Shown: positions 27,637-53,366 of the stretch, piece by piece
How positions within the stretch are numbered: position 1 is the stretch's first letter
Layout: every line of letters begins with the position of its first letter
Assembly: GCA_017508385.1 (NCBI GenBank)
Contig: JAFVZB010000011.1
Location: 1 to 64,000, forward strand
Reading direction: 5' to 3'
Length of the DNA: 64,000 nucleotides
DNA from: Lentisphaeria bacterium
GTDB taxonomy: Bacteria > Verrucomicrobiota > Lentisphaeria > Victivallales > Victivallaceae
Program-made: the position numbers and the translations under genes
Notes under the pieces: model-generated
What the model was told of the DNA's origin: nothing
What the model saw: only the letters and a program-made list of their open reading frames with translations
Database searches by the model: none

Positions 27637-28944
27637 TTACATAACGCCTTTTTCTTTCAAAGCGGCATTCACCAATCTTCCGTCAAGGTCGCATGGGTAA
27701 ACCGAACTCTTTACCGCCATTGCGGCTGCGGTTCCTGCGCCCTCACCCACTGCGCAAACAGGAGGAATGACTCTGCTGCTGCTGTGCAGGGCGTGGTCAA
27801 CGGATATAGCACGGCATCCCATCAGCAGATTGACACTCTTTTCGGGAACGATCGCCCGGTAACTTATCTCATAATAGTCATCGGCAGCTATTTTTTTCAA
27901 ATAAGTTCCGGTTCCGCTCGGGTTGTGGATATCTATTGAATAGCTGCCCTTTGCCACTGCATCAGGATATTTTCTGGCGGTATCAAAATCCTCGACCGTC
28001 TGCACGATTTTACCCTTTATGCGGCGGCTCTCACGTACACCGACATGATGGGCTATCGACGAAATGCGGGCGTTTTCGCATCCAGGAACATGATTTTTCA
28101 GAAATCCGTAATACTCACGCACCTGACGTCTGCCTTCGATTTCAGCTTCAGAAAGCTCAACGGCATTGACTCCGCTCTTTTTTATGATGCGGGTGGTGTT
28201 GAAGTGAACCGTCTCATCTATCCATGTGTTGAACCACAACACATTTTCACGGGGGCAGTTGATTTTGCCTTCGGCTTTCAGACGGTCATAGATGGCATTG
28301 ACTCCGGCACGGTCGGGATATCTTGAGCGGTCTATTCCGCTCAATTTAAAACAGGTGGTCATCGGCTGGCAAAGTCCATCTTCGTTGCCATACATCGCCT
28401 CACATCCGGAAAGAACCGCAAGATCTCCGTCTCCCGTGGAGTCAATGAAAACTTTGCCTTTTACCGCAACGTATCCCGACTTCGAGGAAAAAACTGCGGC
28501 TTCGATTTTGCCGCCATCCATTATAACATCACTGAGATTGTGGTGGTAAAGCAGTTTCACTCCGCTCTCAAGGCAGAGCTCTTCGAGCACCAGCATGGAG
28601 ACGTTTTTATCCACGATGCGGCTGTAAAAATCCATATAGCTCTCATCGTATTTCTGTTCTTTTATCTCGGAAACAAGATATTTTCTCATGCGGCTGCACC
28701 ACTCCTGAAAGATGCCTTTGGTCAGATATTTACCGTGAGCGTGATTGCTCATAAACGGGGAGACCTCTCCGAATGAAGCCATACCGCCCAGTGCTCCGTA
28801 CCTTTCGACCAGCACAGTTTTCACGCCGTTTCTGGCGGCTGCGACTGCGGCGCAGACTCCGCCGGGACCTCCGCCGACAACCACGACATCGGCGCTTTCC
28901 ACCACGGGAATATCTCTATTCACAGTATAATTCAATGTATTCAT
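27637..28944 (-). CDS. FAD-dependent oxidoreductase
   Basis: A 435-residue flavoprotein of the FAD-dependent oxidoreductase (PF12831-like) family. The dinucleotide-binding motif VVVVGGGPGGVCAAVAAARNG is near residue 20 and IDSTGDGDLAVLSG near residue 175. Such genes often stand beside glycan catabolism genes, but the substrate is unknown. Its leader (AGGACAATAACAAAAA before the ATG) is the 3' end of the former DUF4838 gene, so the two were probably a tight operon before the insertion at 28953-31192. Confidence 0.85.
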   Translation of the reverse strand: MNTLNYTVNRDIPVVESADVVVVGGGPGGVCAAVAAARNGVKTVLVERYGALGGMASFGEVSPFMSNHAHGKYLTKGIFQEWCSRMRKYLVSEIKEQKYDESYMDFYSRIVDKNVSMLVLEELCLESGVKLLYHHNLSDVIMDGGKIEAAVFSSKSGYVAVKGKVFIDSTGDGDLAVLSGCEAMYGNEDGLCQPMTTCFKLSGIDRSRYPDRAGVNAIYDRLKAEGKINCPRENVLWFNTWIDETVHFNTTRIIKKSGVNAVELSEAEIEGRRQVREYYGFLKNHVPGCENARISSIAHHVGVRESRRIKGKIVQTVEDFDTARKYPDAVAKGSYSIDIHNPSGTGTYLKKIAADDYYEISYRAIVPEKSVNLLMGCRAISVDHALHSSSRVIPPVCAVGEGAGTAAAMAVKSSVYPCDLDGRLVNAALKEKGVM

Positions 28945-28952
28945 TTTTTGTT

Positions 28953-28986
28953 ATTGTCCTAAATTTTGTGAAAAACATTTATAATT
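28953..28986. repeat. 34-bp direct repeat, copy next to the FAD gene
   Basis: Identical over 34 bases to 31193-31226 and in the same orientation. In the minus-strand frame of the DUF4838 gene this copy reads NYKCFSQNLGQ followed at once by TAA, so it looks like the original 3' end of that gene. It begins eight bases before the FAD start codon. Confidence 0.95.
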
Positions 28987-29195
28987 TCGGTATTACGCCC
29001 AAAAGATACCTGAAAAATCTTCTGATGCGCAAGATCTCCACACTGCTTTCCCGGGAAAAAACCACCTTGCGTGCCGCAGCCGATGAACTGCGGTTCAGTT
29101 CGGATTTCTATCTTTCCCGTTTTATCCGCAAAAACGCCGGTATCCCTGCTCCCCGATTCCGGAAACAGCTGCAGCAATACCCCGGAAAATGGTGA
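28987..29195 (+). pseudogene. AraC-type regulator, 5'-truncated remnant
   Basis: The frame encodes FGITPKRYLKNLLMRK, then ISTLLSREKTTLRAAADEL and FYLSRFIRKNAGIPAPRF. This matches the end of an AraC-family DNA-binding domain: the end of the first helix-turn-helix and the whole second one. The N-terminal sensor and first helices are missing, and the match stops at the 34-bp repeat. It ends directly against the stop of the inserted glycosidase-like gene (convergent), as if both had been neighbours in the donor. Confidence 0.75.
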
Positions 29196-31184
29196 TCATT
29201 CCAGAGTGATGCAGACGGGAACGGTGTGATCAAAACGCATTTTGACTTTTATACCGTCAGCAGTTCTTTCATAGGGAAGATCCTGCCATGAGACATCCTG
29301 ATCCAGAAAGCGCAATTTGGAGCATTGCCGCAAATTTTCAGGAAGATACAAAGCTAGTTCCTCAAGGGGATCAACAGCAAGGTTGATACAGGTCAGGAAC
29401 GCTTTGAAATCTTTCTTTTCCACAGGTTTGTTGGCAATGAAAAATACATGAGGCGCCTTTTTGACCATGGGGAACTGAGCATTGCATCTGATGAGAAGCT
29501 CCTGCAAAAGAGCCTGACGGCGGTAGTTAAAAAGGGAACTTGCATGATGATTTTCCAACGCAGCAGCAAAAATCACCACCTTGCCTCCCAGGGAGTTCCG
29601 GAAAAAAGTCATGCCGGGAGCGGTGTATTTGCCGTGGAAATCAACGATCTTCGTCACTTCTTCGCAGCCGGGGTCAGTGATCTCCACCTTGTAGAGGAAA
29701 CCGTTTCCTTTGGGAGAATACGCATCCGCTCTTGTCATGGTGCGCCCCTTGAGTTCCGGACAGAAACTGTCGCAAATGATCTCTTTCGCCCCCAGATCGA
29801 AACGCGCTTTTCCCTGAAGCAGACCTTCTTCCACCCGGGCTCCTGTGAAGCGGGCAAAATTCCTTTCTGTCAGCACCCGGGCGGCGTCACCGTCAAGGAA
29901 AAGATTTTTGGCAAGAAGCTCCATGATCTTTTCATCGCTCAAAAAGCGCAGCTGTTCGCCTGAGACAAGAACGATATCTTCATCTTCTCTCGTGGTATAG
30001 GGGATCCCGAACGCAGAAACCACCTTGAGCCACTCCGCCTGACGGCAGGGGAAATTGACTCTTTCAAAAGGATCACCCAAGAGCCGCACGCCCTGCAGCT
30101 GACACCCCTCAACACTTTTACGGATGGCATTGAAACGGGAACGCTCACGGTGATACATCAAACTGTACGCCTTCTCTTCATCGTGGTCATCCAGCATCTG
30201 CTGGTTCTGAAAGACTGCGCCGTCAAAACCGAAAGAGAAGACTGCCCCCATCATAGCACGCATACAGCCGGCGGAGGTGTAAAAACGGGTGTGGGGATAG
30301 GTATCGCATTCGTGAATGAAAGTAAAATCCCCCTTGATGTGCTCTTTGGAGTAAAGGCATGAAAACAAGGTTCCAGGCAGATTCTTTATTTGTTCACCGC
30401 TATAAAAGGTTCCGTGAAAACGCACAAAAGGGGTATGCTTATTTCCGGCTAAGGCACGGGCGACTGCTTCGGCACAGTTGCCATCCTTTGCGCTGCTTCC
30501 GGGTTCCATGCACCCCATGGGGATCTCCGGAGTCAATTTATCCGCCTCAGTTCTGACAGCTTGAGCAAAAAGCACAAGAGAATCTTTCGCAAGCGTCTGC
30601 CACCTGCGGAGCAATTCCCGTGATTCAGCTTTCTTTTCAGTAAAGAGATACTCCAACTCCTTTCTTGAGTAAGATCTGCCTTCCCTGCGGGCAAATTCGG
30701 CGAGGTGATGTTCGCAAAAGCAGCCGGCGCCCCCGTGGCAGTTGATTCCGAAATCATCTTCTGTAATGAAAAAATCGGGACGTGCTTTATCAAGGAAAAA
30801 TGCGACATCTTCGGCAAAGCGTTTCCGGTACCCGGGATCCAGGGGACAGGTGGAAAAAGGGGCTTCAGTACCATTTTGCCTGACGATCCGGGTATATCCG
30901 GGGGTAGGTCCGGATTTCAAAGTCAGTGTGTGCCACCAGCCGAAACTGATTTCAGGAGCCAGAAGCGCCTTGATCTGCTTAAAAATCTCGGCGCGCTCTT
31001 CAAAGTATTCCCGGGGCGGATAAGAGATACTGCGCCAACCTTTTGACGGCAGAACGAGCACAAATCTGCTGAATCCGTAATTGGAGTGCTGAAACATGAT
31101 ATTGTCTGCAACGCTGCGGACATCCGTATCAAAGGCCCCCATATAAACCGGGATCAATATGTTGATTTCATCGTGTTTTTTCAT
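29196..31184 (-). CDS. Inserted glycosidase-like protein (internal start of the fused frame)
   Basis: A 662-residue protein starting at MKKHDEINILIPVYMG. It has no signal peptide. The start and repeated alternation look like a TIM-barrel of glycoside-hydrolase type: GWWHTLTLKSG, then FFITEDDFGINCHGG with a C-x-C-x2-H motif near residue 153, then a beta-rich C-terminus. The family is not recognised with certainty. A weak AGGA lies 12 bases upstream in the duplicated repeat, so it may be made on its own as well as part of the fusion described in the next entry. Confidence 0.6.
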   Translation of the reverse strand: MKKHDEINILIPVYMGAFDTDVRSVADNIMFQHSNYGFSRFVLVLPSKGWRSISYPPREYFEERAEIFKQIKALLAPEISFGWWHTLTLKSGPTPGYTRIVRQNGTEAPFSTCPLDPGYRKRFAEDVAFFLDKARPDFFITEDDFGINCHGGAGCFCEHHLAEFARREGRSYSRKELEYLFTEKKAESRELLRRWQTLAKDSLVLFAQAVRTEADKLTPEIPMGCMEPGSSAKDGNCAEAVARALAGNKHTPFVRFHGTFYSGEQIKNLPGTLFSCLYSKEHIKGDFTFIHECDTYPHTRFYTSAGCMRAMMGAVFSFGFDGAVFQNQQMLDDHDEEKAYSLMYHRERSRFNAIRKSVEGCQLQGVRLLGDPFERVNFPCRQAEWLKVVSAFGIPYTTREDEDIVLVSGEQLRFLSDEKIMELLAKNLFLDGDAARVLTERNFARFTGARVEEGLLQGKARFDLGAKEIICDSFCPELKGRTMTRADAYSPKGNGFLYKVEITDPGCEEVTKIVDFHGKYTAPGMTFFRNSLGGKVVIFAAALENHHASSLFNYRRQALLQELLIRCNAQFPMVKKAPHVFFIANKPVEKKDFKAFLTCINLAVDPLEELALYLPENLRQCSKLRFLDQDVSWQDLPYERTADGIKVKMRFDHTVPVCITLE

Positions 31185-33977
31185 CTTATGTGATTGTCCT
31201 AAATTTTGTGAAAAACATTTATAATTACCATTGTTGACGACTACATTGCCTACACAATATCTTCGCTCAATATCGGCTTTCCATATACATATCCAGCCGT
31301 AAGTGTACGGAGCATTGCCGACCGGGTCGGCGCAGATATTGTTTATCACAAGTTCATTGCACTTTGCATTTAATATACCATGCGGAATACTGATTTCAAA
31401 GTTGCCCCACTTGCCGGCACCTTTATCAAACTTGATGTTTCCGGAAAAAACCCTCTTTCCGTTTACAGTTATTTCGCAGGGAACTTCTTCAAGCTCGGTC
31501 ATTCCGATGAGGGTGATTTTCTTTACATCGTTTCCGGAAAACCTTGACACCGCCCTGCTCCACGGTGAGCTCGCCCGGCGCAGACAGATATTCTCACGGG
31601 ATACCGGACGGCTCGGGTAATACTGTGCTCCTTTGAAGTCGCCGCTTTTTATCGTATTGCCTGAGACGACTTTGAGCTCTTTCGGCTTCACCACCGGGTT
31701 TGCCATAAACTTTTTCATCTCAGGGTCAAGCCAGAATTTTTTGTTTTTGATTTTTATTCCGGTGACATAGCTGAACCACACTGACACATCTCTGTACGGA
31801 TGCGGATAATTGGTGAATGAGACCTTTTTATTCAATATCTTCATCAATTCAGCCACCTGGCTGGCAAAACGTTTGTAGTCGTTGTTCAACGGAGCATTAT
31901 TTACGTTGAACTCATCAAGTTCGCTGAAAAGCAACACTGCTTTATGGTACATCAGCGACCTGCGCGCCCTGCCCTCAGCCGGAGCAGCGGCGATCGCTTT
32001 ATCAAGCAATTTATGCAGATCAGCCAGCAGTTCAGGAGTAACTGTGCCAGTGATGGGAAACTCACAATACTGACTCGGCTTTTTCTCTTTGACGTGTTTA
32101 TAAATACGGTTGAAGTAATCGACCATGTACGGAGCTGCCTCTTTACCGTAGTAAAACTGCATATGCTCCTTTATCAGAGATTGCACGTCGATATCATCCT
32201 GCCAGAACATCTTTCCCCACACATAGGTCATCAGTGCTTCAAACTGAGGAGTTACTCCGCAGATTTCAAAACCGCTGAAATTTCTCTCCCTGCAATATTT
32301 TATACGCTCGCAAGTTGCAGTAAACGGCACAGTAAGTGCGTAACGGTTCTGAAATTGAGTTGGATAGACAAAAGCCGTTATATTGCCGTTTTCAACACTT
32401 TTCTGCCAGTTTTCAAGTTGACGCCACCCCTCACGGTTTCCGTAAGATTCATTGACGCTGTCGGATGTAAAATTGGGCTTGTAAAACGCGTATTTTACTA
32501 CAACCTGAGGATGCATTTTCAAATCTTCAATCGGCTCGGCTGTGTATGTGTAAGCATGTGCAATTATCTTTTTACCGGGAAACTCAGGCATCACCTCTCT
32601 TGCGACCTCGTTTATCATATCCATATAAACTCTGGTCCATGAGTTTTCTTTGGAATTGGCACGGCACTTGTCGCACTGGCACCAGTTATGAAAATCGCAG
32701 CTGGCAAGTAATACAAACTCTGCCTGCGGAGCATTTTTCAAATAACGCCTGGCGGCTTCTTTGTAAAGTCTGCGAACCTCAGGATTGGAATAACATTTCG
32801 GTTGCTCTCTGCGGTTGCGCGGATCACGGCGTTTGCCATCCTTACCAATTGCAAAAAGTTCAGGATTTGTTTCAAAAAGCGTTGACGGAACTATAAATAT
32901 ATCATTGTGATGCGGCAAATCTCTACCGTAAACTGCCGGTGCAATGAGCATCTTTTTATTGCAGTATCCCATACCGATCATATCGCCGTAATCATTGAAA
33001 AAACTGAAAGTAAACGGTGTTGAGCGTCTGCACTCAAATTTGGGAAAAACCACATTTTTTTCAGTTGGTATGACTTGATGAAAGCGTCCGTAAAATTTGA
33101 ATCCGCAATTTTTGAGCAGCTCGTATGAGCCGTGAACCAGATTGAACGACTTGTTTGCGCTTATAACTATATTTTTACCGCTTGAAACTTTGAAAACGTT
33201 TTTCGCTTTGCATTCCTTGAGAGTGTTATCGGCAAAACCGATATTGACCGCATCATCCGACGGCAGTTTGCCGACGGTCAGAGGAAGCATTTTTCCGGTC
33301 TGCAAATAGAGATATTTCCTCAATCTCACTGCGGCAAAGAGCTGCCAGTAATCGGGATTTTCCGGCATTTTTACGGAAACGATTTTTTTGCCGTCATAAT
33401 TGCTGAACGGAGTGTTTTTCTCATTCAAACTGTCGGTCACTTCCTGAAAACTCACGGATGTGACATCAAGTTTCGCTCCCGGAGTCAGGTGTAAACGCAA
33501 AACTATTTTATCAGCTGTACAGTGTTCTTCGATCTGATCAGGAGTATTGAAGTTTTTATTTTCAAGAAGGTGCGGAGTCAGAAACTCTTCGCTCCAATTA
33601 CCGCTGCCGGTGATTTTCCGGCGGATTATATTTTTTCTTCCCTTTGCTCCCTTAACATAAATTGTCAGCATTATGTAGCTGCGCGGAGTATTGGTATAAC
33701 TGAAACTCATTTTTTGGCGCAGCAAATCGTTATCCCACTCTTTTTCGAGAGTAACTTTTCCTGCGGCGGAAAGAATAAGTCTGCCGTTTTTCTCAGAACA
33801 TTTCCAGTTGCGCTGCGGTTCAAAGATTTTGAAAGGCAGCGTTCCGTGCCCCGGAATTTCCGGATAATCCATTGCTTCGCACTGCTTTGCCCACTCGTGG
33901 ATATACACTTTGGAATCCTGAGCGTACATGCTCATTACACCGGCAATGAGCAGGCAGAGAAAAAACATTTTTTTCAT
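29196..33977 (-). CDS. DUF4838-type secreted protein fused in frame to the inserted protein
   Basis: One uninterrupted frame of 1593 residues. Residues 1-920 are a secreted DUF4838-type protein: signal peptide MKKMFFLCLLIAGVMSMYA, an N-terminal alpha/beta region, a barrel with the SCDFHNWCQCDKC motif near residue 433, and a C-terminal beta-sandwich-like part ending YGWICIWKADIERRY. Residues 921-931 come from the 34-bp repeat and its edge, and 932-1593 are the inserted glycosidase-like protein. The original gene probably stopped at a TAA that the insertion replaced with TCA. AGGAG precedes the ATG at 33975-33977. It follows a pseudopilin gene by 22 bases. DUF4838 proteins are probable glycan-active enzymes; the substrate is unknown. 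Confidence 0.75.
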   Translation of the reverse strand: MKKMFFLCLLIAGVMSMYAQDSKVYIHEWAKQCEAMDYPEIPGHGTLPFKIFEPQRNWKCSEKNGRLILSAAGKVTLEKEWDNDLLRQKMSFSYTNTPRSYIMLTIYVKGAKGRKNIIRRKITGSGNWSEEFLTPHLLENKNFNTPDQIEEHCTADKIVLRLHLTPGAKLDVTSVSFQEVTDSLNEKNTPFSNYDGKKIVSVKMPENPDYWQLFAAVRLRKYLYLQTGKMLPLTVGKLPSDDAVNIGFADNTLKECKAKNVFKVSSGKNIVISANKSFNLVHGSYELLKNCGFKFYGRFHQVIPTEKNVVFPKFECRRSTPFTFSFFNDYGDMIGMGYCNKKMLIAPAVYGRDLPHHNDIFIVPSTLFETNPELFAIGKDGKRRDPRNRREQPKCYSNPEVRRLYKEAARRYLKNAPQAEFVLLASCDFHNWCQCDKCRANSKENSWTRVYMDMINEVAREVMPEFPGKKIIAHAYTYTAEPIEDLKMHPQVVVKYAFYKPNFTSDSVNESYGNREGWRQLENWQKSVENGNITAFVYPTQFQNRYALTVPFTATCERIKYCRERNFSGFEICGVTPQFEALMTYVWGKMFWQDDIDVQSLIKEHMQFYYGKEAAPYMVDYFNRIYKHVKEKKPSQYCEFPITGTVTPELLADLHKLLDKAIAAAPAEGRARRSLMYHKAVLLFSELDEFNVNNAPLNNDYKRFASQVAELMKILNKKVSFTNYPHPYRDVSVWFSYVTGIKIKNKKFWLDPEMKKFMANPVVKPKELKVVSGNTIKSGDFKGAQYYPSRPVSRENICLRRASSPWSRAVSRFSGNDVKKITLIGMTELEEVPCEITVNGKRVFSGNIKFDKGAGKWGNFEISIPHGILNAKCNELVINNICADPVGNAPYTYGWICIWKADIERRYCVGNVVVNNGNYKCFSQNLGQSHKMKKHDEINILIPVYMGAFDTDVRSVADNIMFQHSNYGFSRFVLVLPSKGWRSISYPPREYFEERAEIFKQIKALLAPEISFGWWHTLTLKSGPTPGYTRIVRQNGTEAPFSTCPLDPGYRKRFAEDVAFFLDKARPDFFITEDDFGINCHGGAGCFCEHHLAEFARREGRSYSRKELEYLFTEKKAESRELLRRWQTLAKDSLVLFAQAVRTEADKLTPEIPMGCMEPGSSAKDGNCAEAVARALAGNKHTPFVRFHGTFYSGEQIKNLPGTLFSCLYSKEHIKGDFTFIHECDTYPHTRFYTSAGCMRAMMGAVFSFGFDGAVFQNQQMLDDHDEEKAYSLMYHRERSRFNAIRKSVEGCQLQGVRLLGDPFERVNFPCRQAEWLKVVSAFGIPYTTREDEDIVLVSGEQLRFLSDEKIMELLAKNLFLDGDAARVLTERNFARFTGARVEEGLLQGKARFDLGAKEIICDSFCPELKGRTMTRADAYSPKGNGFLYKVEITDPGCEEVTKIVDFHGKYTAPGMTFFRNSLGGKVVIFAAALENHHASSLFNYRRQALLQELLIRCNAQFPMVKKAPHVFFIANKPVEKKDFKAFLTCINLAVDPLEELALYLPENLRQCSKLRFLDQDVSWQDLPYERTADGIKVKMRFDHTVPVCITLE
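31193..31226. repeat. 34-bp direct repeat, copy at the DUF4838/insert junction
   Basis: Perfect match of 28953-28986. Here the DUF4838 frame continues through the repeat as CAA TCA CAT AAG and into the inserted gene, so no stop codon is met. Confidence 0.95.
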
Positions 33978-33999
33978 ATAAAAATTCTCCTGAAAAAAA

Positions 34000-34761
34000 T
34001 CACAACGCCGACGGACCGGCATTTGTCTTGTTGTAGCCAAAAAACTTATTTATCGGCTTCCGGGTATTATCGGTGATATACATCAACTCATCCCTCAGCA
34101 TAAGTTGGACGTGACCATCGACAAATCCGACCTGAGTATATCCGTTGTGTCTTGCTGACGGAGCGTATCCGACATCACCGTTATGATATGATACATAAGC
34201 ATCACCCAGCGCCTTTCCGTCGAGACTGCCGACTTCACACATCAACACCCTGAGAGATGGTTTGGATATGCGTGTGAGTTTGCTTCCGTAACCGTAAGTG
34301 CCGCCAGTAGTGATATATTTTGCTGACAGGAAATAGGTATTGTATCCGTAACTCACTTTTTTGGCATTGACTTCATAACTTACCTGACGGCCATCCATCG
34401 GGCAGTACAGCTGACTTTTGGATGCGTCGCCGTTAAACTCCGCTTTGTTTATCTTGACTCCGGCAAACTTATACATCTCATGATACCAGCGGCGCAGATC
34501 ACTGGCATTTGTGCCGCTCCATGAGCAGCGCCAGTAAAAGGTATCATCATGAGAATCGGCATACAGAAGATGTCCTCTGGTCCAGGTATTGACCTGAGAG
34601 GCGCAAGTCGTAGTTCTTGCCCGGTCACGTGCACTTGACAGTGCGGGCATGAGTATTGATGCCAATATGGCTATAATGGCGATAACCACCAACAGTTCGA
34701 TAAGGGTGAACTTTTTCCCGTTTTTTCCCATTCTGATTCCGTCTTTTCTGATTACGTTCAT
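34000..34761 (-). CDS. Pseudopilin with H-X9-DG motif (locus 1)
   Basis: A 253-residue type II secretion/type IV pilin-like protein. The prepilin signal [20 protein letters not shown] follows a short basic leader; cleavage is expected before Phe. After it come a hydrophobic helix and a periplasmic domain with CP and H-X9-DG signatures (HNGYTQVGFVDGHV near residue 210), the hallmark of the large pseudopilin families of Planctomycetes and Lentisphaerae. AGGAGGTG lies five bases before the ATG. It heads an operon with the DUF4838 gene and faces the PocR/AraC regulator. Confidence 0.9.
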   Translation of the reverse strand: MNVIRKDGIRMGKNGKKFTLIELLVVIAIIAILASILMPALSSARDRARTTTCASQVNTWTRGHLLYADSHDDTFYWRCSWSGTNASDLRRWYHEMYKFAGVKINKAEFNGDASKSQLYCPMDGRQVSYEVNAKKVSYGYNTYFLSAKYITTGGTYGYGSKLTRISKPSLRVLMCEVGSLDGKALGDAYVSYHNGDVGYAPSARHNGYTQVGFVDGHVQLMLRDELMYITDNTRKPINKFFGYNKTNAGPSAL

Positions 34762-34866
34762 AAAAACACCTCCTGTTGTCAGTTTTTTTGGGTACTGGTA
34801 ATAAAATACAATGATTTTTTATAAAAAACTATGGACTTTTTTGCTTTTTTGTTGTATATTTTCAAT

Positions 34867-35673
34867 ATGAAAGAGAATATTGACATTTTTAAATCATTTT
34901 GCCGCATGGTCGAGACGGAGTTCAGCTGCAAACTCTGTCTGCATGACTACACCGGTATGCTCGCTCACGGAGAGCTTCCTCACATACACATATCAGAATG
35001 TTGTACTGCGTTCAAAAAGAGTGTACGCAGACGGCACCTGCTCTGTACCGACTTTGACCAGACAAAAGTTCATCAGAAGATGCTCTCACTGCAAAGGGGA
35101 TTTTTCAAACAGTGCCACTGCGGAATTCTTGAGGCGGTTTTTCCGGTTTACTGCAAAGGAACTCTTGCCGGAGTTATTTTTGCCGGTCCATTTGCAGGTG
35201 GTGAGGCGGAACTCACTGTTCCGGTGACCAAAATAACTCAACATAAATTTCCGTCGCTTGATACCCCGACCCGGGAGCGGCTGCTGGCGACAGGAGAACT
35301 GCTGGCAAGTTATCTCGGAAACTGCTGTACTCCTGATTTCGGAACAGACCGCAAAGGAGTGATAAAGGATTATCTTCAGCACCATGCAAGCTCTTACTCC
35401 GCCTCTCTTGAAGAGCTCTCTGAAAAACTCGGACTGAGTCCGGCACGCACAAGCGAAGCGGTCAAAAAGATTTTCAACTGCTCCTTTTCCCATCTGCTCA
35501 ACGCCGAGAGATTGAGGATCTCCAAAATATATCTTGACAACACCGACTACCCCATGGAAATCATCGCAAGAAAAGCCGGTTTCAGAGACGGAACCTATTT
35601 TCACCGGGTTTTCAAGCGTTTTAATGGAGTTACTCCCGGAGAATATCGCAAAAAGCACTCTCAAATTTCTTGA
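34867..35673 (+). CDS. PocR-domain AraC family regulator
   Basis: A 268-residue transcription factor. Residues 1-150 form a PocR-like sensor rich in Cys and His (EFSCKLCLHDYTG, HLLCTDFDQ, KQCHCGILE); residues 165-268 are a two-helix-turn-helix AraC domain (KLGLSPARTSEAVKKIFN and FRDGTYFHRVFKRFNGVTPGEY). The start MKENIDIF lies only seven bases after a TATATT box and has no ribosome-binding site, suggesting a leaderless message; an in-frame ATG 12 codons upstream would overlap the promoter. It is divergent from the pseudopilin operon, which it probably controls. Confidence 0.85.
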   Translation: MKENIDIFKSFCRMVETEFSCKLCLHDYTGMLAHGELPHIHISECCTAFKKSVRRRHLLCTDFDQTKVHQKMLSLQRGFFKQCHCGILEAVFPVYCKGTLAGVIFAGPFAGGEAELTVPVTKITQHKFPSLDTPTRERLLATGELLASYLGNCCTPDFGTDRKGVIKDYLQHHASSYSASLEELSEKLGLSPARTSEAVKKIFNCSFSHLLNAERLRISKIYLDNTDYPMEIIARKAGFRDGTYFHRVFKRFNGVTPGEYRKKHSQIS

Positions 35674-35698
35674 AATCCGCAAAAATATATTGTATATT
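35670..35698 (+). promoter_or_regulatory. Promoter of greA
   Basis: TTGAAA (35670-35675), 17 bases and TATATT (35693-35698), starting within the last codon of the regulator gene and about 90 bases upstream of greA. Confidence 0.65.
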
Positions 35699-35791
35699 AT
35701 TGAGCTGTAAAATCAACTTTCTTCCGGAACACCAGTTTTTCCGGCAGGACAACGCGGAAAAAATCAGTTTCCGCAGGAGAAAAACATTATT

Positions 35792-37897
35792 ATGGATAAA
35801 GCTAAATTTGAAGAACTTGTACTGGCAGCCGCTGCCAATCCGTCACGGGCTCTGCTCGACAAACTCTCCGCAGAAATCAAAGGTGCTGAACATCCGCTCT
35901 CAGCCGATGTCAACGCCGCTCTTGCAGTTTTGTGGGAAAAGTGGAGCGGAACTGAACTCGACACCGCTTCATCTGAAATCTGTCTTATCGCCGCTGCCGC
36001 CGGTGTAAACGACACTCCGGAGTTCCGCAAACTGCTGGTCAACGCCACCAAGACCCTGCTGCCCAACGACCTCGGACACAACCCCGTCATGCGTGCTCTC
36101 GGTGTCCGTGACGAAAGGACTCCGCTTACTGAAGTGGCAAAACGTCTGCGCAGACTTCTTTCTCTCAAAAACGGCACGGTGGTGTTTCTGCCGTCATCCT
36201 GCCGCTGGGGAGTGGCAAGTTCGGTTGACCCCATCAACTGCACACTTCCGGTCAAAACTTTCCGCGGAGTCGGTGCCAACAGCTCAATTCCGCTCGATGC
36301 AGTGCTCAAAGATGTCATCTGCCTTGAGCTCGATATCGAAATCGAACAGCTGGTGCTTGCCGATTCTGCGATGATTCCGGCTCAGAAGTTCCGTGAGATC
36401 GTCAAACGCCGTGCCCGCTTCGAGGTCGATGACCAGCAGATGCGCGCCATGGCTCTCTCAGGATGCGCCCGCAAACTGGCTCCGACCGCCTTCGATGCCT
36501 ACTGGAACGCCACTGCCGCCGCAACTACTGCCGCCGCAACCAGAACCAGCAGCGCCGGACGCAGTCTGCTCGAGATGGATCAGCTGCTCACCGCAGAAGA
36601 GAAAGCCGGAGCAGGAGAATTTACGACCGATGACCTTATCGGATTCCGTGCGTTCTTCGTGCGTCTCAAACCCGATACCGCAGTCCGTGAAAGCAAGATG
36701 CTCGGCGAAGTTATCAGCAAAGTAGCTTCCCGCTGCGCCAAAGAGTGCTGGAAAGAGCTGTTTGCTCCGTTGCAGACCAAAGCTCCGTTCTGGCCCGCCG
36801 ACATCACTAAAGCTCCGTGGAACACCATCGGAGTCTGGGGTGATCTCTCAGCCAAAGCCATCACCAAAGTCGCTGAAGTTACCTGCGAACTCTTTGATAT
36901 TGAGTACACTTCTAAAGGAATGATGCGTCTGCCGCTCAAAGCACTCAACGGTTTCGGAACTTTCCTTACCGATGATGACATTTACGATGCCGCAAGCGAG
37001 TGCAAGACCTTCACTCCTGATATCCTGCTCTGGATTTGGAAAAACTCCAAGAAACGCAAGAGCGAACTCCTGCCTCCTTTCGTCACCGTTGAGAGTGTCT
37101 GCCGTGTTCTCTCCGGAGCGGAACTTCCCAAAGCATGGAGTGCCGCCAGACGCGAACTGCGCTCTCTTTTGATGGATAACGCCCAGTTCCAGACCCGCAT
37201 GGTCGAATCTGCCTGCGGAAACATGAAACTCTTTACTTCGGTTCTCCAGGGCGCACTCTTCCTCAGCGCAAGTGAGCGTCAGAGTCTTATGGTGAAACTC
37301 GCCCGTATCTCCCCTGCTCTCAGAGCTCACATCGAGGGCGGAGCCGGTCAGCTCATTCTCAAGGCCGGTGTCGGTAAAACCAATGTCGGAGAAGCTCCGG
37401 CAGAAGAGATCCCGAACCTCACCAGTGTCAAATCTCACCGCCGTCTGGTGGCTGAACTTGATGATATCGTCAATGTGCAGATTCCGGAAAACCGTGAAGC
37501 TCTCAAAATCGCCCGTGCACACGGTGACTTCCGTGAGAACTCTGAGTTCGATGCCGCCAAAGAGCGCCGCAACCACCTCGGCAAACGCAGAAGCGAACTC
37601 GAAAGAGAGCTCGCCCAGCTTCAGAGCATCGTCCTCAAAAACGTCGTGGTCAAAGATACCGCCGTTGTCGGCAGTGCCATTGAGCTCAAATATGCAGATG
37701 GAAAAGTTGAAAACTACATGCTGCTCGGCTCATGGGATGGCGACCCCGACCGCAAGTTCCTCTCATTCAAGACCCGTCTCGGCAGTGCCGTGCTCAACAA
37801 AAAGGTCGGAGAGACTTTCGATGCTCCCGGAGGCAAGTGCACTCTGGTATCTGTCGCCGCCCTGCCCGCTGAGATCATCACTGAGCTCGATGACTGA
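35792..37897 (+). CDS. greA: Transcription elongation factor GreA with a large N-terminal extension
   Basis: A 701-residue protein. The last 160 residues are a full GreA: a coiled coil (ENREALKIARAHGDFRENSEF, with the acidic tip residues in the ENSEFDAAKER region) and a C-terminal FKBP-like domain. GreA stimulates cleavage of backtracked RNA in stalled polymerase. The first 540 residues are helical and match no domain I can name. Ordinary GreA has about 160 residues; comparable long forms are known in chlamydiae, so this supports PVC ancestry. A phosphoesterase gene follows after two bases. Confidence 0.9.
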   Translation: MDKAKFEELVLAAAANPSRALLDKLSAEIKGAEHPLSADVNAALAVLWEKWSGTELDTASSEICLIAAAAGVNDTPEFRKLLVNATKTLLPNDLGHNPVMRALGVRDERTPLTEVAKRLRRLLSLKNGTVVFLPSSCRWGVASSVDPINCTLPVKTFRGVGANSSIPLDAVLKDVICLELDIEIEQLVLADSAMIPAQKFREIVKRRARFEVDDQQMRAMALSGCARKLAPTAFDAYWNATAAATTAAATRTSSAGRSLLEMDQLLTAEEKAGAGEFTTDDLIGFRAFFVRLKPDTAVRESKMLGEVISKVASRCAKECWKELFAPLQTKAPFWPADITKAPWNTIGVWGDLSAKAITKVAEVTCELFDIEYTSKGMMRLPLKALNGFGTFLTDDDIYDAASECKTFTPDILLWIWKNSKKRKSELLPPFVTVESVCRVLSGAELPKAWSAARRELRSLLMDNAQFQTRMVESACGNMKLFTSVLQGALFLSASERQSLMVKLARISPALRAHIEGGAGQLILKAGVGKTNVGEAPAEEIPNLTSVKSHRRLVAELDDIVNVQIPENREALKIARAHGDFRENSEFDAAKERRNHLGKRRSELERELAQLQSIVLKNVVVKDTAVVGSAIELKYADGKVENYMLLGSWDGDPDRKFLSFKTRLGSAVLNKKVGETFDAPGGKCTLVSVAALPAEIITELDD

Positions 37898-37899
37898 CA

Positions 37900-38745
37900 G
37901 TGGACGACGAAAGCATACTGTTTCCCGCCTCGAAGCGGTTTCCGGAACGTGTCAGCAGATGGCAGCGCATTTCCGGCAGACCGCTTGGCAGAAACAAACA
38001 GAAAATGACGGTGACGGTGAAGTACGCTTTACCGCCGCCTTTTTTGTGCCCGGACGGAGTGAAAATCGCATTTGTCTCTGATTTACACTACACCGGAAAT
38101 GAAAAATCACGTCTCATCGCCGATGAGATAATATCCGTGCTAAAAGAGGAAAAGTGTGATTTGCTCCTGCTTGGCGGCGACATCTGCGCAGATGCCTGCC
38201 ACCTGAAATATTTACCGGATATCCTGAGCCGTTTGGGTGAGTGTGCCGAAAAATGTATTGCCATTGCCGGCAACTGGGAACGGGGCAAATTCTGGCTTCC
38301 TGCGGACTACTGGCATAAACTGTACCAAAAGTACAATATATCTTTTCTTGTCAACGCTCAGGAAAAATTCAGAAACATCACCGTCACCGGAGTTGATGAC
38401 TGCGGCAGAGGTTTTCCGCAGCTGCCGTGTGCTTTTGACCAAAATTCATGCAACATCCTGCTCGCCCACCGTCCTGATACCGTGGTATGGCTCGACAGCA
38501 GCGATGATGAGTTGAAAAACTGCCACCTTGCACTCTGCGGACACACTCACGGCGGGCAGATAAAATTTATCCGCGGTCTGCTCCCGGCAAGCAAGTACGG
38601 CTGGGATTTTGACCACGGATTTTTCAACCACAGATTGAACAATACCAAGATGTACGTCTCAAGCGGCGCAGGAGAACTGACGTTCCCGTACAGAATAAAC
38701 TGCCCGAGAGAAATCGTTATCTTTTCTGCTGCCGCAGAGAGTTGA
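37900..38745 (+). CDS. Metallophosphoesterase, YaeI/LpxG-like
   Basis: A 281-residue calcineurin-like phosphoesterase with the dimetal motifs in order: FVSDLHYTGNEKS, LLGGDICAD, AGNWERGK, LAHRPD and CGHTHGGQI. YaeI- and LpxG-type members cleave phosphodiesters, and LpxG of chlamydiae hydrolyses UDP-diacylglucosamine in lipid A synthesis; that function is only a possibility here. No signal peptide. The open frame uses a GTG start two bases after greA; later starts are possible because about 50 N-terminal residues precede the fold. Confidence 0.82.
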   Translation: MDDESILFPASKRFPERVSRWQRISGRPLGRNKQKMTVTVKYALPPPFLCPDGVKIAFVSDLHYTGNEKSRLIADEIISVLKEEKCDLLLLGGDICADACHLKYLPDILSRLGECAEKCIAIAGNWERGKFWLPADYWHKLYQKYNISFLVNAQEKFRNITVTGVDDCGRGFPQLPCAFDQNSCNILLAHRPDTVVWLDSSDDELKNCHLALCGHTHGGQIKFIRGLLPASKYGWDFDHGFFNHRLNNTKMYVSSGAGELTFPYRINCPREIVIFSAAAES

Positions 38746-45557: not shown

Positions 45558-45654
45558 GCGGGGAAAGCGTGAAAACTTCTTTTCACGAGAAAAGAAGTTT
45601 TCCCTCTCTCCCCGCGCCCCTCTCTCCCTTTCAAGAAAAGCGGGGAACTTTTTT
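45558..45654. repeat. Palindromic repeat element, copy 1
   Basis: About 97 bases, roughly 85 percent identical to 49461-49554. The first 58 bases fold into a long imperfect hairpin with 12-base inner arms of the type AAACTTCTTTT/AAAAGAAGTTT and outer GCGGGG/CCCCGC arms. The rest, TTTCAAGAAAAGCGGGGAAC and a T-run, is also shared with copy 2. It ends at the stop codon of the second pectate-lyase-fold gene. Between the tRNA terminator and this element nothing else is recognised. Confidence 0.85.
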
Positions 45655-48745: not shown

Positions 48746-49675
48746 TTATTTGTTTACGCCATACCAGAACATCCAATTATCATCCCGTTTGACAAAATCT
48801 GTCGGTTCGCTGCCCGCCATGGAGCTTACGTGACCATCGAGCATCAGCATATTGATACGGCTGTTATGACGGAAACTGGCGCCCTGACCTGCGGCGTAAC
48901 TTATGCGGTGGGAAATGCCGTGCGGTTCGATTGCCATTTCTTTTACGTTATAAGTTCCACCGGAAAAGGCAGTTTCCGGATTTACTCCGGGAGCCACCTG
49001 TATTTCAGTTGAAGCAAGTACACCGGAAGGATTTTTCAGTTTGACTATCTTTATCTGGGGAACATTGAGTTTACCGCTCTTCATGTAAGGAAAAATCAGC
49101 AAATTCAAACCGTAGTTGGTTCCTGAGTGAAACACTCCATAGCCCGGACATTTTGTCCATTGGACTCCCTGATATGGTCTTGAGCGGGTTTTGGATATGG
49201 AAAAATGGATAAAACCGTTGTTTTTCAGAGTATTTTGCCCGTTGATACTCCAAACGTTAAAGCTCGCATTCAAGGTGGGAATGAAATCCCCGTAGCTGTC
49301 TGTATAGAAAGAGACCGCATACCCGAGATTTTTCAGGTTGTTTTGACAGGTTGAACTCTTTGCCCGCTCCCGTGCCTGAGAGAGAGCCGGCATCAGTATG
49401 CCTGCCAATATAGCTATGATTGCGATAACAACCAATAGTTCTATAAGGGTAAAGGAATACGCGGGGAGAGAGGGAAACTTCTTTTCCCGTGAAAAGAAGT
49501 TTCCCTCTCTCCCCGCCCCCCTCTCACCCTTCAAGAAAAGCGGAGTACTTTTTTGAAAATAATACAACGGCGAAGCACATATTTGACAAGTTTTGCTCAC
49601 CAGAAGTTCGATCAAAGTAAAACTGCTGCCTTGTCTCTTCCCGGCGGAATTGAGGTTTACTTTTCCGTTTTTCAT
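48746..49675 (-). CDS. Pseudopilin with a duplicated signal motif and an embedded repeat (locus 2)
   Basis: A 309-residue pseudopilin. FTLIELLV occurs twice: first near residue 19, followed by the non-hydrophobic [11 protein letters not shown], and again near residue 75, where the normal [17 protein letters not shown] helix follows. The 50-odd residues between are largely encoded by a palindromic repeat element ([18 protein letters not shown]). Only the second motif has a membrane helix, so cleavage there would leave a long leader. The H-X9-DG motif ([14 protein letters not shown]) is near residue 283. The second of two close ATGs (49673-49675) is best spaced from AAGGAGG. Confidence 0.85.
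49461..49554. repeat. Palindromic repeat element, copy 2, inside the pseudopilin gene
   Basis: About 94 bases. 49461-49485 and 49492-49516 are perfect 25-base inverted arms around a 6-base loop, and the remaining part matches copy 1 (45558-45654). The element keeps the pseudopilin reading frame open on the minus strand. Confidence 0.9.
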
Positions 49676-49700
49676 TCTCATGCCTCCTTGTTTTTGGATT

Positions 49701-50895: not shown

Positions 50896-50985
50896 AGAGG
50901 ATTTTTCCGTCGAGGGATATGGTTATCACCCGGGTCGGGATGGGTTTGCCTGATTTTTCTATCGCACGGGATGTTATTGCCGCTG
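50896..50985. repeat. 90-bp direct repeat, duplicated copy
   Basis: Identical for 90 bases to 52616-52705 and in the same orientation. In the minus frame it encodes the last 30 residues of the iron-sulfur protein (ending SLDGKIL), here followed by TGA. It lies 14 bases after the LacI stop. Confidence 0.97.
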
Positions 50986-51036
50986 CTCCTGAAATGACAA
51001 GAGAGGTACTGGGAAAGAGTGGAAAAACTGAGCCAG

Positions 51037-52410
51037 TCAAATAATAACAACTGCAGGAGTTGTTGCATTTTTAAGCACAGGAACACCGTCAACAAGAAGA
51101 GTAAGTCCTTTTCCGTACGCAAAATGCTCGCCATTCCGGTCAAAGATCATGGAAACAGTTTTGCCGCGGCAGGGAAGATTTTCAAGCAGGAAATAATCCC
51201 ATTCCGCAGGAATCAATGGATTTATCCTTACCGTGCCGTCGCTTTGCGGACGGAACCCTGCAAGTCCGGTTATAACAAGATCACAATAAGTTGAGTGATT
51301 GTAATTAAGACTGCGTGCGCCCAAGTCAGTGTACCAGACACCATTTTCAGGATCATAACTTTCTGCCAAATGAGGAACACCATCCTTGTAATGGCACATC
51401 GTATAAGTTTTCAGCAGTTTGAAATAATCTTCGCTGCTGACAAAATTCTGTTTGTAATTATTCAACAGATTTGCCATACCGTCCAGAGCCTGGGAAGATG
51501 CAAACGGCCAGCACCATCCATTCCACATACACTTACCGGGTGCGCTGTGTTCGACAAGATAATCCTCGTGATTTTTTTCCAGGGTACGCAAACCGTACGG
51601 AGCGCAGAAATACTCTTCATCCATAATATATTTCCATGCGCAGCTGAAATCCTCATCGGGCATATTATAGCACCACGGTATATATCCCTCCAACTCAATG
51701 CCGTTGATAAAGAAGCGGTTATCACGCCTTCTGTCAACAAAGAATGAGCGTTTTCTGTTCCATACCAACCTTTGAAACACCGTCTTGAGCTGCCCGGCTT
51801 TCCGGCGGAACATCCCGGCATCATCAGTGCGGTTCAGCATGGCGGCAGTTTCTGCCAAAGCAACGGCATCAGCATACATGTAACTGTTTAATGTACTGCG
51901 GTATCCTTCGCCGCCATGGCTTTGACCGTAACTCAATGCGAGAAGAGCAAATTCCATTCCGTCGCGGTCCGGAATCTGCCAGAAAAGTCCGTAATTACTG
52001 TCAAACCGTTCTTTTTCCCATTCTTCGTAATTGGACTTCATTGCTTCATAAAGTTCTTTTGCCATTTCATACTCACCGGAAACAATGCAGTATTTCATGC
52101 AGCTGTTTGCCAACGGAAAACTGTAAAGGCGCGGCTGGGCTTCACTGCTGCACCAGAAGGAAATGTAATCACGCATGAATTTCCGGTCTTTAATCCAACG
52201 CCCCTCTGCAATATGATGATGTGCCGGACAACTGATCGTGCCGTCAACGCCGGAATGAATTACCGGAATAGAAAATTCAGTTATAATGTATTTCCCGTTG
52301 GCTCGCTGAAAAATATGAGTTGAGTAAGCCTCCCAGCGGTAACGGAAGATTTCCTCTATGTGCGAATCAGGACACAAAAAACTTGGAACAAGCTGGCTAA
52401 AATTTTCCAT
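51037..52410 (-). CDS. Glycoside hydrolase with a six-hairpin fold (GH63/MGH1-like)
   Basis: A 457-residue protein without a signal peptide. It has the (alpha/alpha)6-barrel pattern of the GH63/trehalase group: FWQIPDRDGMEFALL, MYADAVALAETAAMLNR, GCENARISS-free helical repeats, HSAPGKCMWNGWCWPFASSQ with the conserved W-x-G-x-x-W stretch, and a C-terminal SLNYNHSTYCDLVITGLAG. The acid and base residues are not assigned with certainty. AAGGAGT lies a few bases before the ATG. It lies wholly within the cassette bounded by the 90-bp repeat. Confidence 0.72.
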   Translation of the reverse strand: MENFSQLVPSFLCPDSHIEEIFRYRWEAYSTHIFQRANGKYIITEFSIPVIHSGVDGTISCPAHHHIAEGRWIKDRKFMRDYISFWCSSEAQPRLYSFPLANSCMKYCIVSGEYEMAKELYEAMKSNYEEWEKERFDSNYGLFWQIPDRDGMEFALLALSYGQSHGGEGYRSTLNSYMYADAVALAETAAMLNRTDDAGMFRRKAGQLKTVFQRLVWNRKRSFFVDRRRDNRFFINGIELEGYIPWCYNMPDEDFSCAWKYIMDEEYFCAPYGLRTLEKNHEDYLVEHSAPGKCMWNGWCWPFASSQALDGMANLLNNYKQNFVSSEDYFKLLKTYTMCHYKDGVPHLAESYDPENGVWYTDLGARSLNYNHSTYCDLVITGLAGFRPQSDGTVRINPLIPAEWDYFLLENLPCRGKTVSMIFDRNGEHFAYGKGLTLLVDGVPVLKNATTPAVVII

Positions 52411-52615
52411 AGATACTCCTTAATCTTCAAAGGGGGGTTATCATTGTGTTTCAATATCCTGATTTTTGCGGCAATGAACACAAAGGCTGTTATTATTATG
52501 GCGGTTTGGATTAGAAATATAGCATATAACCCATGTTTTGTCAAACTCTCAAATCCGCCTTTATCCATAAAATCTTTCAGCATGGATGCGTGCTTTCGGC
52601 AAAGCCGGTGTTTTT
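52411..52615 (-). pseudogene. Fragment of a membrane-protein gene at the cassette edge
   Basis: The minus-strand frame is open from the repeat boundary inward and encodes one clear membrane helix (GLYAIFLIQTAIIITAFVFI) followed by a basic segment (AAKIRILKH), as at the C-terminus of a transporter. The frame runs on into the glycosidase gene. An ATG at 52581-52583 has no ribosome-binding site, so a small intact gene is less likely than a 5'-truncated remnant. A run of six G/C at 52431-52436 may hide a frameshift near its end. Confidence 0.45.
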
Positions 52616-53366
52616 AGAGGATTTTTCCGTCGAGGGATATGGTTATCACCCGGGTCGGGATGGGTTTGCCTGATTTTTCTATCGCACGGGATGTTATTGC
52701 CGCTGTTCCTCCGCAACAGGGAACTTCCATCCTCAAAATTGTCACAGAGAGAATGTTGTGACTTGCAAAAATCGCAGCGAGCTTTTCGATGTATTCATCT
52801 GCCGCTCCGTCAAGTTTCGGACAGAATACGATGAGCTTTTTCCCCTTGAGGAAATCAGCGTGGAATGCTCCGTATGTGTGTGCCACACAGTCGGCTGAGA
52901 CAAGTATATGTGCGTTATCAAAAAACTCCGACTGCGGATTGAGCAGTTTCAACTGCACGGGCCACTGGCGCAGTTCAGACTGGGTATTCCCGGCTGGAGC
53001 TCCGTCTGAAATGTTTTCGTCGAACACCACCTCTGTTGATTTGAGATAATCCAATGCTCTCTTGTAAAGCTCATCTTCATTGTGGTCCTTGAGGTGCTGC
53101 AAGTGGGCGGCGACAGCGGATGTTCCGCATCTAATCACGTTTGCCATGACTTTTTCTTCGTCGTATGATTCAGCTTTGCGCTCGATCACTCTTATTGCAT
53201 CCTGCGGACAACGCTTTATGCACGCTCCGAGCCCGTCGCAGAACACGTCGCTTACCAGACACGCTTTGCCGTTGACTATCTGCAAGGCTCCTTCAGGACA
53301 GTTGGGAATACACTCACCGCATCCGTTACACCTGGCTTGGTCGATCTGAATGATTTTGCGTTTCAT
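52614..53366 (-). CDS. Iron-sulfur protein with two [4Fe-4S] ferredoxin motifs
   Basis: A 250-residue protein. CNGCGECIPNCPEGA (about residues 13-27) and a second, modified set CDGLGACIKRCPQDA give two cluster sites. The remaining 190 residues contain further cysteines, including VPCCGG, and are of a type seen in stand-alone ferredoxin-like proteins of anaerobes; the partner is unknown. The 3' end (52616-52705) is duplicated at 50896-50985. Its start overlaps the HD gene by four bases. Confidence 0.83.
   Translation of the reverse strand: MKRKIIQIDQARCNGCGECIPNCPEGALQIVNGKACLVSDVFCDGLGACIKRCPQDAIRVIERKAESYDEEKVMANVIRCGTSAVAAHLQHLKDHNEDELYKRALDYLKSTEVVFDENISDGAPAGNTQSELRQWPVQLKLLNPQSEFFDNAHILVSADCVAHTYGAFHADFLKGKKLIVFCPKLDGAADEYIEKLAAIFASHNILSVTILRMEVPCCGGTAAITSRAIEKSGKPIPTRVITISLDGKIL
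52616..52705. repeat. 90-bp direct repeat, copy within the iron-sulfur gene
   Basis: The in-place 3' end of the iron-sulfur protein gene, identical to 50896-50985. The stop codon here is TAA, formed by the T-run of the cassette edge; the other copy ends in TGA. Both give the same protein end. Confidence 0.97.

Follow-up and report, generated by a model that had tools for sequence, protein, structure and literature searches.

The window analysed in this study is a stretch of 64,000 nucleotides from a Lentisphaeria bacterium whose own genome is a draft of 94 contigs and 2.48 Mb, estimated to be 86% complete. On the minus strand of this window, a DUF4838 gene (31265..33977; PF16126, E 2.4e-38) and a downstream FAD-dependent oxidoreductase gene (27637..28944; PF12831, E 2e-113) are separated by a segment bounded by a direct repeat, the two copies of which, at 28953-28986 and 31193-31226, are identical in 34 of 34 bases and have the same orientation, exactly as the first-pass annotation had described. 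Between the repeats lie two genes arranged tail to tail: a 68-aa C-terminal fragment of an AraC-type regulator (28987..29195, plus strand) and a complete gene of 662 aa (29196..31184, minus strand), here called the cargo gene. No third copy of the 34-mer is found at up to 3 mismatches in the draft genome, which has two copies only, and dinucleotide-shuffled windows give 0 matches at the same threshold.

Comparison with G015, a genome of the same genus, reveals a site that lacks this segment. In G015 a DUF4838 gene with 95% amino acid identity directly precedes an FAD gene (82%), with neither insert nor repeat. Positions 31270-37900 of the window align with 12506-5860 of G015 contig C8, and positions 27708-28952 align with 13774-12530, such that 2317 bp in the window occupy the place of 23 bp in G015. 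The DUF4838 protein of G015 ends in ...KADIKRSAK*, followed by 12 bases and then the ATG of the FAD gene. This alignment demonstrates that the lineage of the window gained the segment by insertion or that G015 lost it cleanly, and the insertion sequence (IS) remnants described below, which occupy both edges of the segment in the window, favour insertion. The proposal that the segment was inserted between the DUF4838 and FAD genes is thus borne out. The expectation of a relative with this junction and a single 34-base copy holds for the junction but not for the copy, since the 34-mer is absent from the G015 junction. For the same reason, we rejected the idea that the 34-mer is the native tail of the DUF4838 gene.

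The identity of the repeat emerges from its copies in other genomes. Four other genomes of the family (G001, G061, G062 and G073) carry the exact 34-mer, often within about 125 bp of contig ends, as a multicopy IS would predict, and near-identical 34-mers (1-3 mismatches) occur in ten more genomes besides the bacterium's own; these copies adjoin unrelated sequence. A loose search with the inner 23 bases finds matches in several relatives, and those in G012 and G051 extend upstream alike, reading ...GNVVIxxGNYKCFSQNLGQ*. The 34-mer encodes the last 11 codons of this reading frame (NYKCFSQNLGQ), which belong to a transposase and overlap the terminal inverted repeat. One right-end homologue (L076 in G051) is the C-terminus of a 460-aa transposase ORF, the last residues of which, ...GNYKCFSQNLGQ, are encoded by the homologue of the 34-bp repeat. 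This 460-aa transposase of the relatives matches the NCBIfam ISH6 model NF041731 with E 2.5e-145 and 484 bits (cut-off 240), and in Pfam it gives a weak Transposase_mut match. With the transposase as query, 30 of 100 genomes of relatives show copies that are full, broken or truncated. Complete copies, with left and right ends paired, are 1450-1451 bp long in G051, G048 and G056 and are flanked by exact 8-bp target duplications; their terminal inverted repeats are GTTATTGTCCCAAATTTTGTGA and GATAATGTCCC... at the two ends, and only the right type occurs in the window. The IS itself extends 3 bp past the 34-mer to its true edge, which is AAC in 25 of 34 right-end copies, with a terminal C in 33 of the 34. 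The 8 bp past this edge are 80% A+T, and their consensus has A as the second and T as the seventh base, in agreement with the published ISH6 target AANATNTT, an A+T-rich 8-bp duplication (PMC3942029). As judged from these comparisons, both 34-bp copies are the right ends of two decayed ISH6-family ISs in the same orientation. We rejected the reading of the 34-mer as a regulatory motif, a promoter or operator in shared use, since there are just two copies in the own genome and those of the relatives are IS ends. We also considered the IS end as a promoter for downstream genes, and consensus matches are at chance level.

The two remnants differ in length and in the terminal triplet. The remnant that abuts the FAD gene (RE2; 28950..28986, minus strand) comprises the last 37 bp of the IS, that is, the 34-bp repeat plus the terminal AAC, and its 34-bp part is identical (34/34) to the IS ends in the four genomes with exact copies. 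The remnant at the DUF4838 side (RE1; 31190..31264, minus strand, upper boundary approximate) retains about 75 bp of IS right end, as delimited by tblastn and alignment, and encodes the transposase tail RYCVGNVVVNNGNYKCFSQNLGQ. In the own genome, tblastn with the 460-aa transposase detects the transposase tail only, at window positions 31194-31268 (residues 436-460, 68%, E 1.3e-4), so the window keeps only the last 25 or so codons; neither a left end nor a transposase core was found in the window. Read in the direction of the operon, the order is the DUF4838 tail, whose last codons are replaced by IS sequence, then RE1 ending in CAC, ATAAGATG (31182..31189, minus strand), the cargo gene, the antisense AraC fragment, RE2 ending in AAC, and AAAAAATG (28942..28949, minus strand). 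RE1 thereby connects the DUF4838 tail to the cargo start, and RE2 connects the AraC C-terminus to the FAD start. Both IS edges sit 5 bases before a start codon, and the start codon falls within the 8-bp target: AAAAAATG, a putative half of a target duplication by analogy with the 8-bp duplications at complete relatives, holds that of the FAD gene, and ATAAGATG, assigned by its position relative to the IS edge, holds that of the cargo gene. With the left ends lost, no 8-bp duplication is visible in the window, and AAAAAATG next to RE2 lacks a counterpart on the DUF4838 side. RE2 keeps the transposase stop TAA. In RE1, the terminal triplet CAC instead of AAC removes the stop, which reads TCA, and as a result the DUF4838 gene, transposase tail and cargo gene form one frame of 1614 aa. 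The first-pass annotation had taken deletion of the interior and one repeat to give a normal operon, with a TAA stop for DUF4838 and six bases to the FAD start. That junction is not the ancestral one: the G015 protein stops after KADIKRSAK, and both the TAA and the six-base spacing stem from the IS end, where the transposase stop is followed by the bases that lead up to the FAD ATG.

The AraC fragment covers positions 21-80 of Pfam HTH_18 and lacks about 210 N-terminal residues relative to full-length ORFs of 285 aa (G126) and 282 aa (G013), to which it is 79% and 74% identical. BLAST homology to a full-length orthologue sets in at 28985, 2 bp within the repeat, independently confirming the earlier statement that the cut in the regulator gene coincides with the edge of the repeat. 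The repeat is open in the AraC frame, and the same starting point of homology led us to reject it as AraC coding sequence. In G126 and G013 the full AraC gene sits downstream of a pyruvate-formate-lyase-like gene (the family is named for G126). Searches of the own genome recovered neither the AraC N-terminus, for which the search had no positive control, nor this partner gene; this fits import of the fragment, but the absence of the N-terminus is weak evidence, because that genome is 86% complete.

The cargo gene belongs to a Lentisphaeria family without a named domain and has orthologues with 61% identity in G012 and G027 and 59% in G126. The family has members in 70 of 149 related genomes, many of which have several, and two of the nearest relatives are from Lentisphaeria of yak cecum and sheep colon. 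The first-pass annotation was right that the gene is complete, but its description as glycosidase-like is unproven: the 662-aa protein has no Pfam, NCBIfam or PDB match, and profile searches of the family were also empty. Its structure prediction gave a poor model (pLDDT 37.5), which we set aside. Across the family, the acidic residues D143, D144, E292 and D294 are invariant. The third-position G+C of the cargo gene (0.545) lies within that of its neighbours (0.50-0.60), so the gene is not marked as foreign, and a foreign base composition of the insert, which we also considered, gave no signal.

ISH6, designated p-MULT 2, is a family of the Mutator superfamily (Guerillot et al. 2014, PMC3942029), and in that 2014 survey all retrieved members but one were archaeal. 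The terminal inverted repeats by which the family is recognised end in C and are 18-39 bp long in prokaryotic Mutator-type elements. The elements in our relatives resemble the family in being single-gene ISs with a transposase far above the model cut-off, terminal inverted repeats ending in C and an A+T-rich 8-bp target duplication. Their host lineage, in contrast to the almost wholly archaeal set of that survey, is Lentisphaeria, and the copies in the window differ further in being remnants without transposase core or left end. As in a composite transposon, two ends of the same IS family flank a gene segment that is missing in a relative. Unlike in such a transposon, little is left of either IS copy, a functional transposase is lacking, and neither the outer left end nor the target duplication is present; the segment could be no more than the relic of one. 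Short same-end pieces in G015 (165-277 bp) and G051 (187 and 388 bp) recall MITEs or internally deleted IS derivatives, whereas the ends of the window unit are in direct and not inverted orientation. In G015, the 165-277 bp pieces form a MITE family with about 20 right-end copies (L081, L083, L085, L091 and other loci), ISH6-like inverted repeats and 8-bp target duplications. An element of about 50 bp in G074 (L163, 1470-1540, contig C66) is hardly more than two joined IS ends (GTTATTGTCCCAAATTATAAGTGTTTTTCACAAAATTTGGGACAATAAC).

Other repeats were observed in the window. A dispersed 55-nt repeat, CCCTCTCTC...CAAGAAAAGCGG, is found at 45599-45653 and 49500-49554; the latter copy lies within a prepilin-like ORF (48746-49681), with two pilin-type leader motifs around the repeat, and a similar motif adjoins MITE copies in G015. 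A second cassette is bounded by a 95-bp direct repeat (94/95) at 50896-50990 and 52616-52710, whose sequence is that of the 3'-terminal part of a ferredoxin-like gene (52614-53366, minus strand) and which flanks a complete 457-aa gene (51037-52410, minus strand) with relatives in G022, G031 and G002. This repeat was also considered as an ISH6 end, and it is not one. Just inside its right copy, about 61 bp at 52555-52615 form a dispersed sequence that also occurs at G015:C53:28840 and G000:C15:19871 and that, by eye, looks terminator-like.

Taken together, we consider that both repeats are of IS origin and that the cargo gene arrived by an IS-linked route of one kind or another, with a probability of roughly 0.87. 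One such route, to which we give about even chances when taken alone, is composite transposition. Chromosomal DNA captured between two ISH6 copies of the same orientation would have arrived as a unit of the composite type, IS1 - cargo gene - AraC - IS2, moved by its two outer ends, the left one of IS1 and the right one of IS2. A first deletion would then have removed most of IS1 along with the last few DUF4838 codons, and a second one most of IS2 along with the AraC N-terminus. The cargo gene now sits within the host operon, where a one-base difference at the IS edge, CAC for AAC, joins it to the DUF4838 frame. This route would take a single transposition followed by two deletions. That the unit transposed as a whole can only be inferred, because the window is without left end, transposase core and 8-bp duplication. 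Against such an arrival, the tail-to-tail arrangement of the AraC and cargo genes was seen in no relative, nor was a donor with the two genes convergent found among them; in G013, relatives of both lie on one contig with other genes between. The absence of full IS copies in the own genome weighs little, given that it is 86% complete.

A second route, which shares the IS origin and differs in the arrival step only, appears possible, although we hold it tentatively and at less than even odds. An ISH6 element would have been resident between the DUF4838 and FAD genes, and an incoming, possibly circular, fragment, on which the cargo gene and AraC tail came together with an IS end, would have recombined with it, duplicating the right end. 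Such a history is about as simple as composite transposition. In its favour, the copies match in all 34 bp and point the same way, which is what one crossover with a circle would produce, and RE2 abuts the FAD gene at an IS edge; but for homologous recombination a match of 34 bp is short, at least if no longer IS copies existed then, and no direct trace of a circle is seen. It is very unlikely that a metagenome assembler created the arrangement by joining unrelated contigs through a shared IS end: the draft has 94 contigs and contigs of relatives do break at the ISH6 end, but both outer flanks are collinear with G015, so the cargo gene would need placing exactly between them, and the copies share only 34 bp, which is within the span of ordinary short reads. 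Least credible of all is the original view of a 34-bp target duplication made by a novel insertion process, which accounts for an exact direct repeat at both insert edges and an empty site in G015 but not for the lack of the 34-mer at that site, its presence at IS ends in unrelated contexts of other genomes, or the continuation of the copy at 31193 as IS sequence to about 75 bp.

The IS origin of both repeats replaces a claimed new insertion mechanism, one without a mobile element, with a known one. It also shows that, where a gene ends in a long and exact direct repeat, this repeat can be the tail of a transposase gene running into its terminal repeat. That ISH6-type right ends in direct orientation serve as repeated capture points in Lentisphaeria is a long shot; if true, short decayed ends of 37-75 bp would be recombination sites that load genes into operons at start codons. 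For the family itself, an element described mainly from archaea is widespread in Lentisphaeria, where it occurs as full copies, deletion derivatives and a MITE family.
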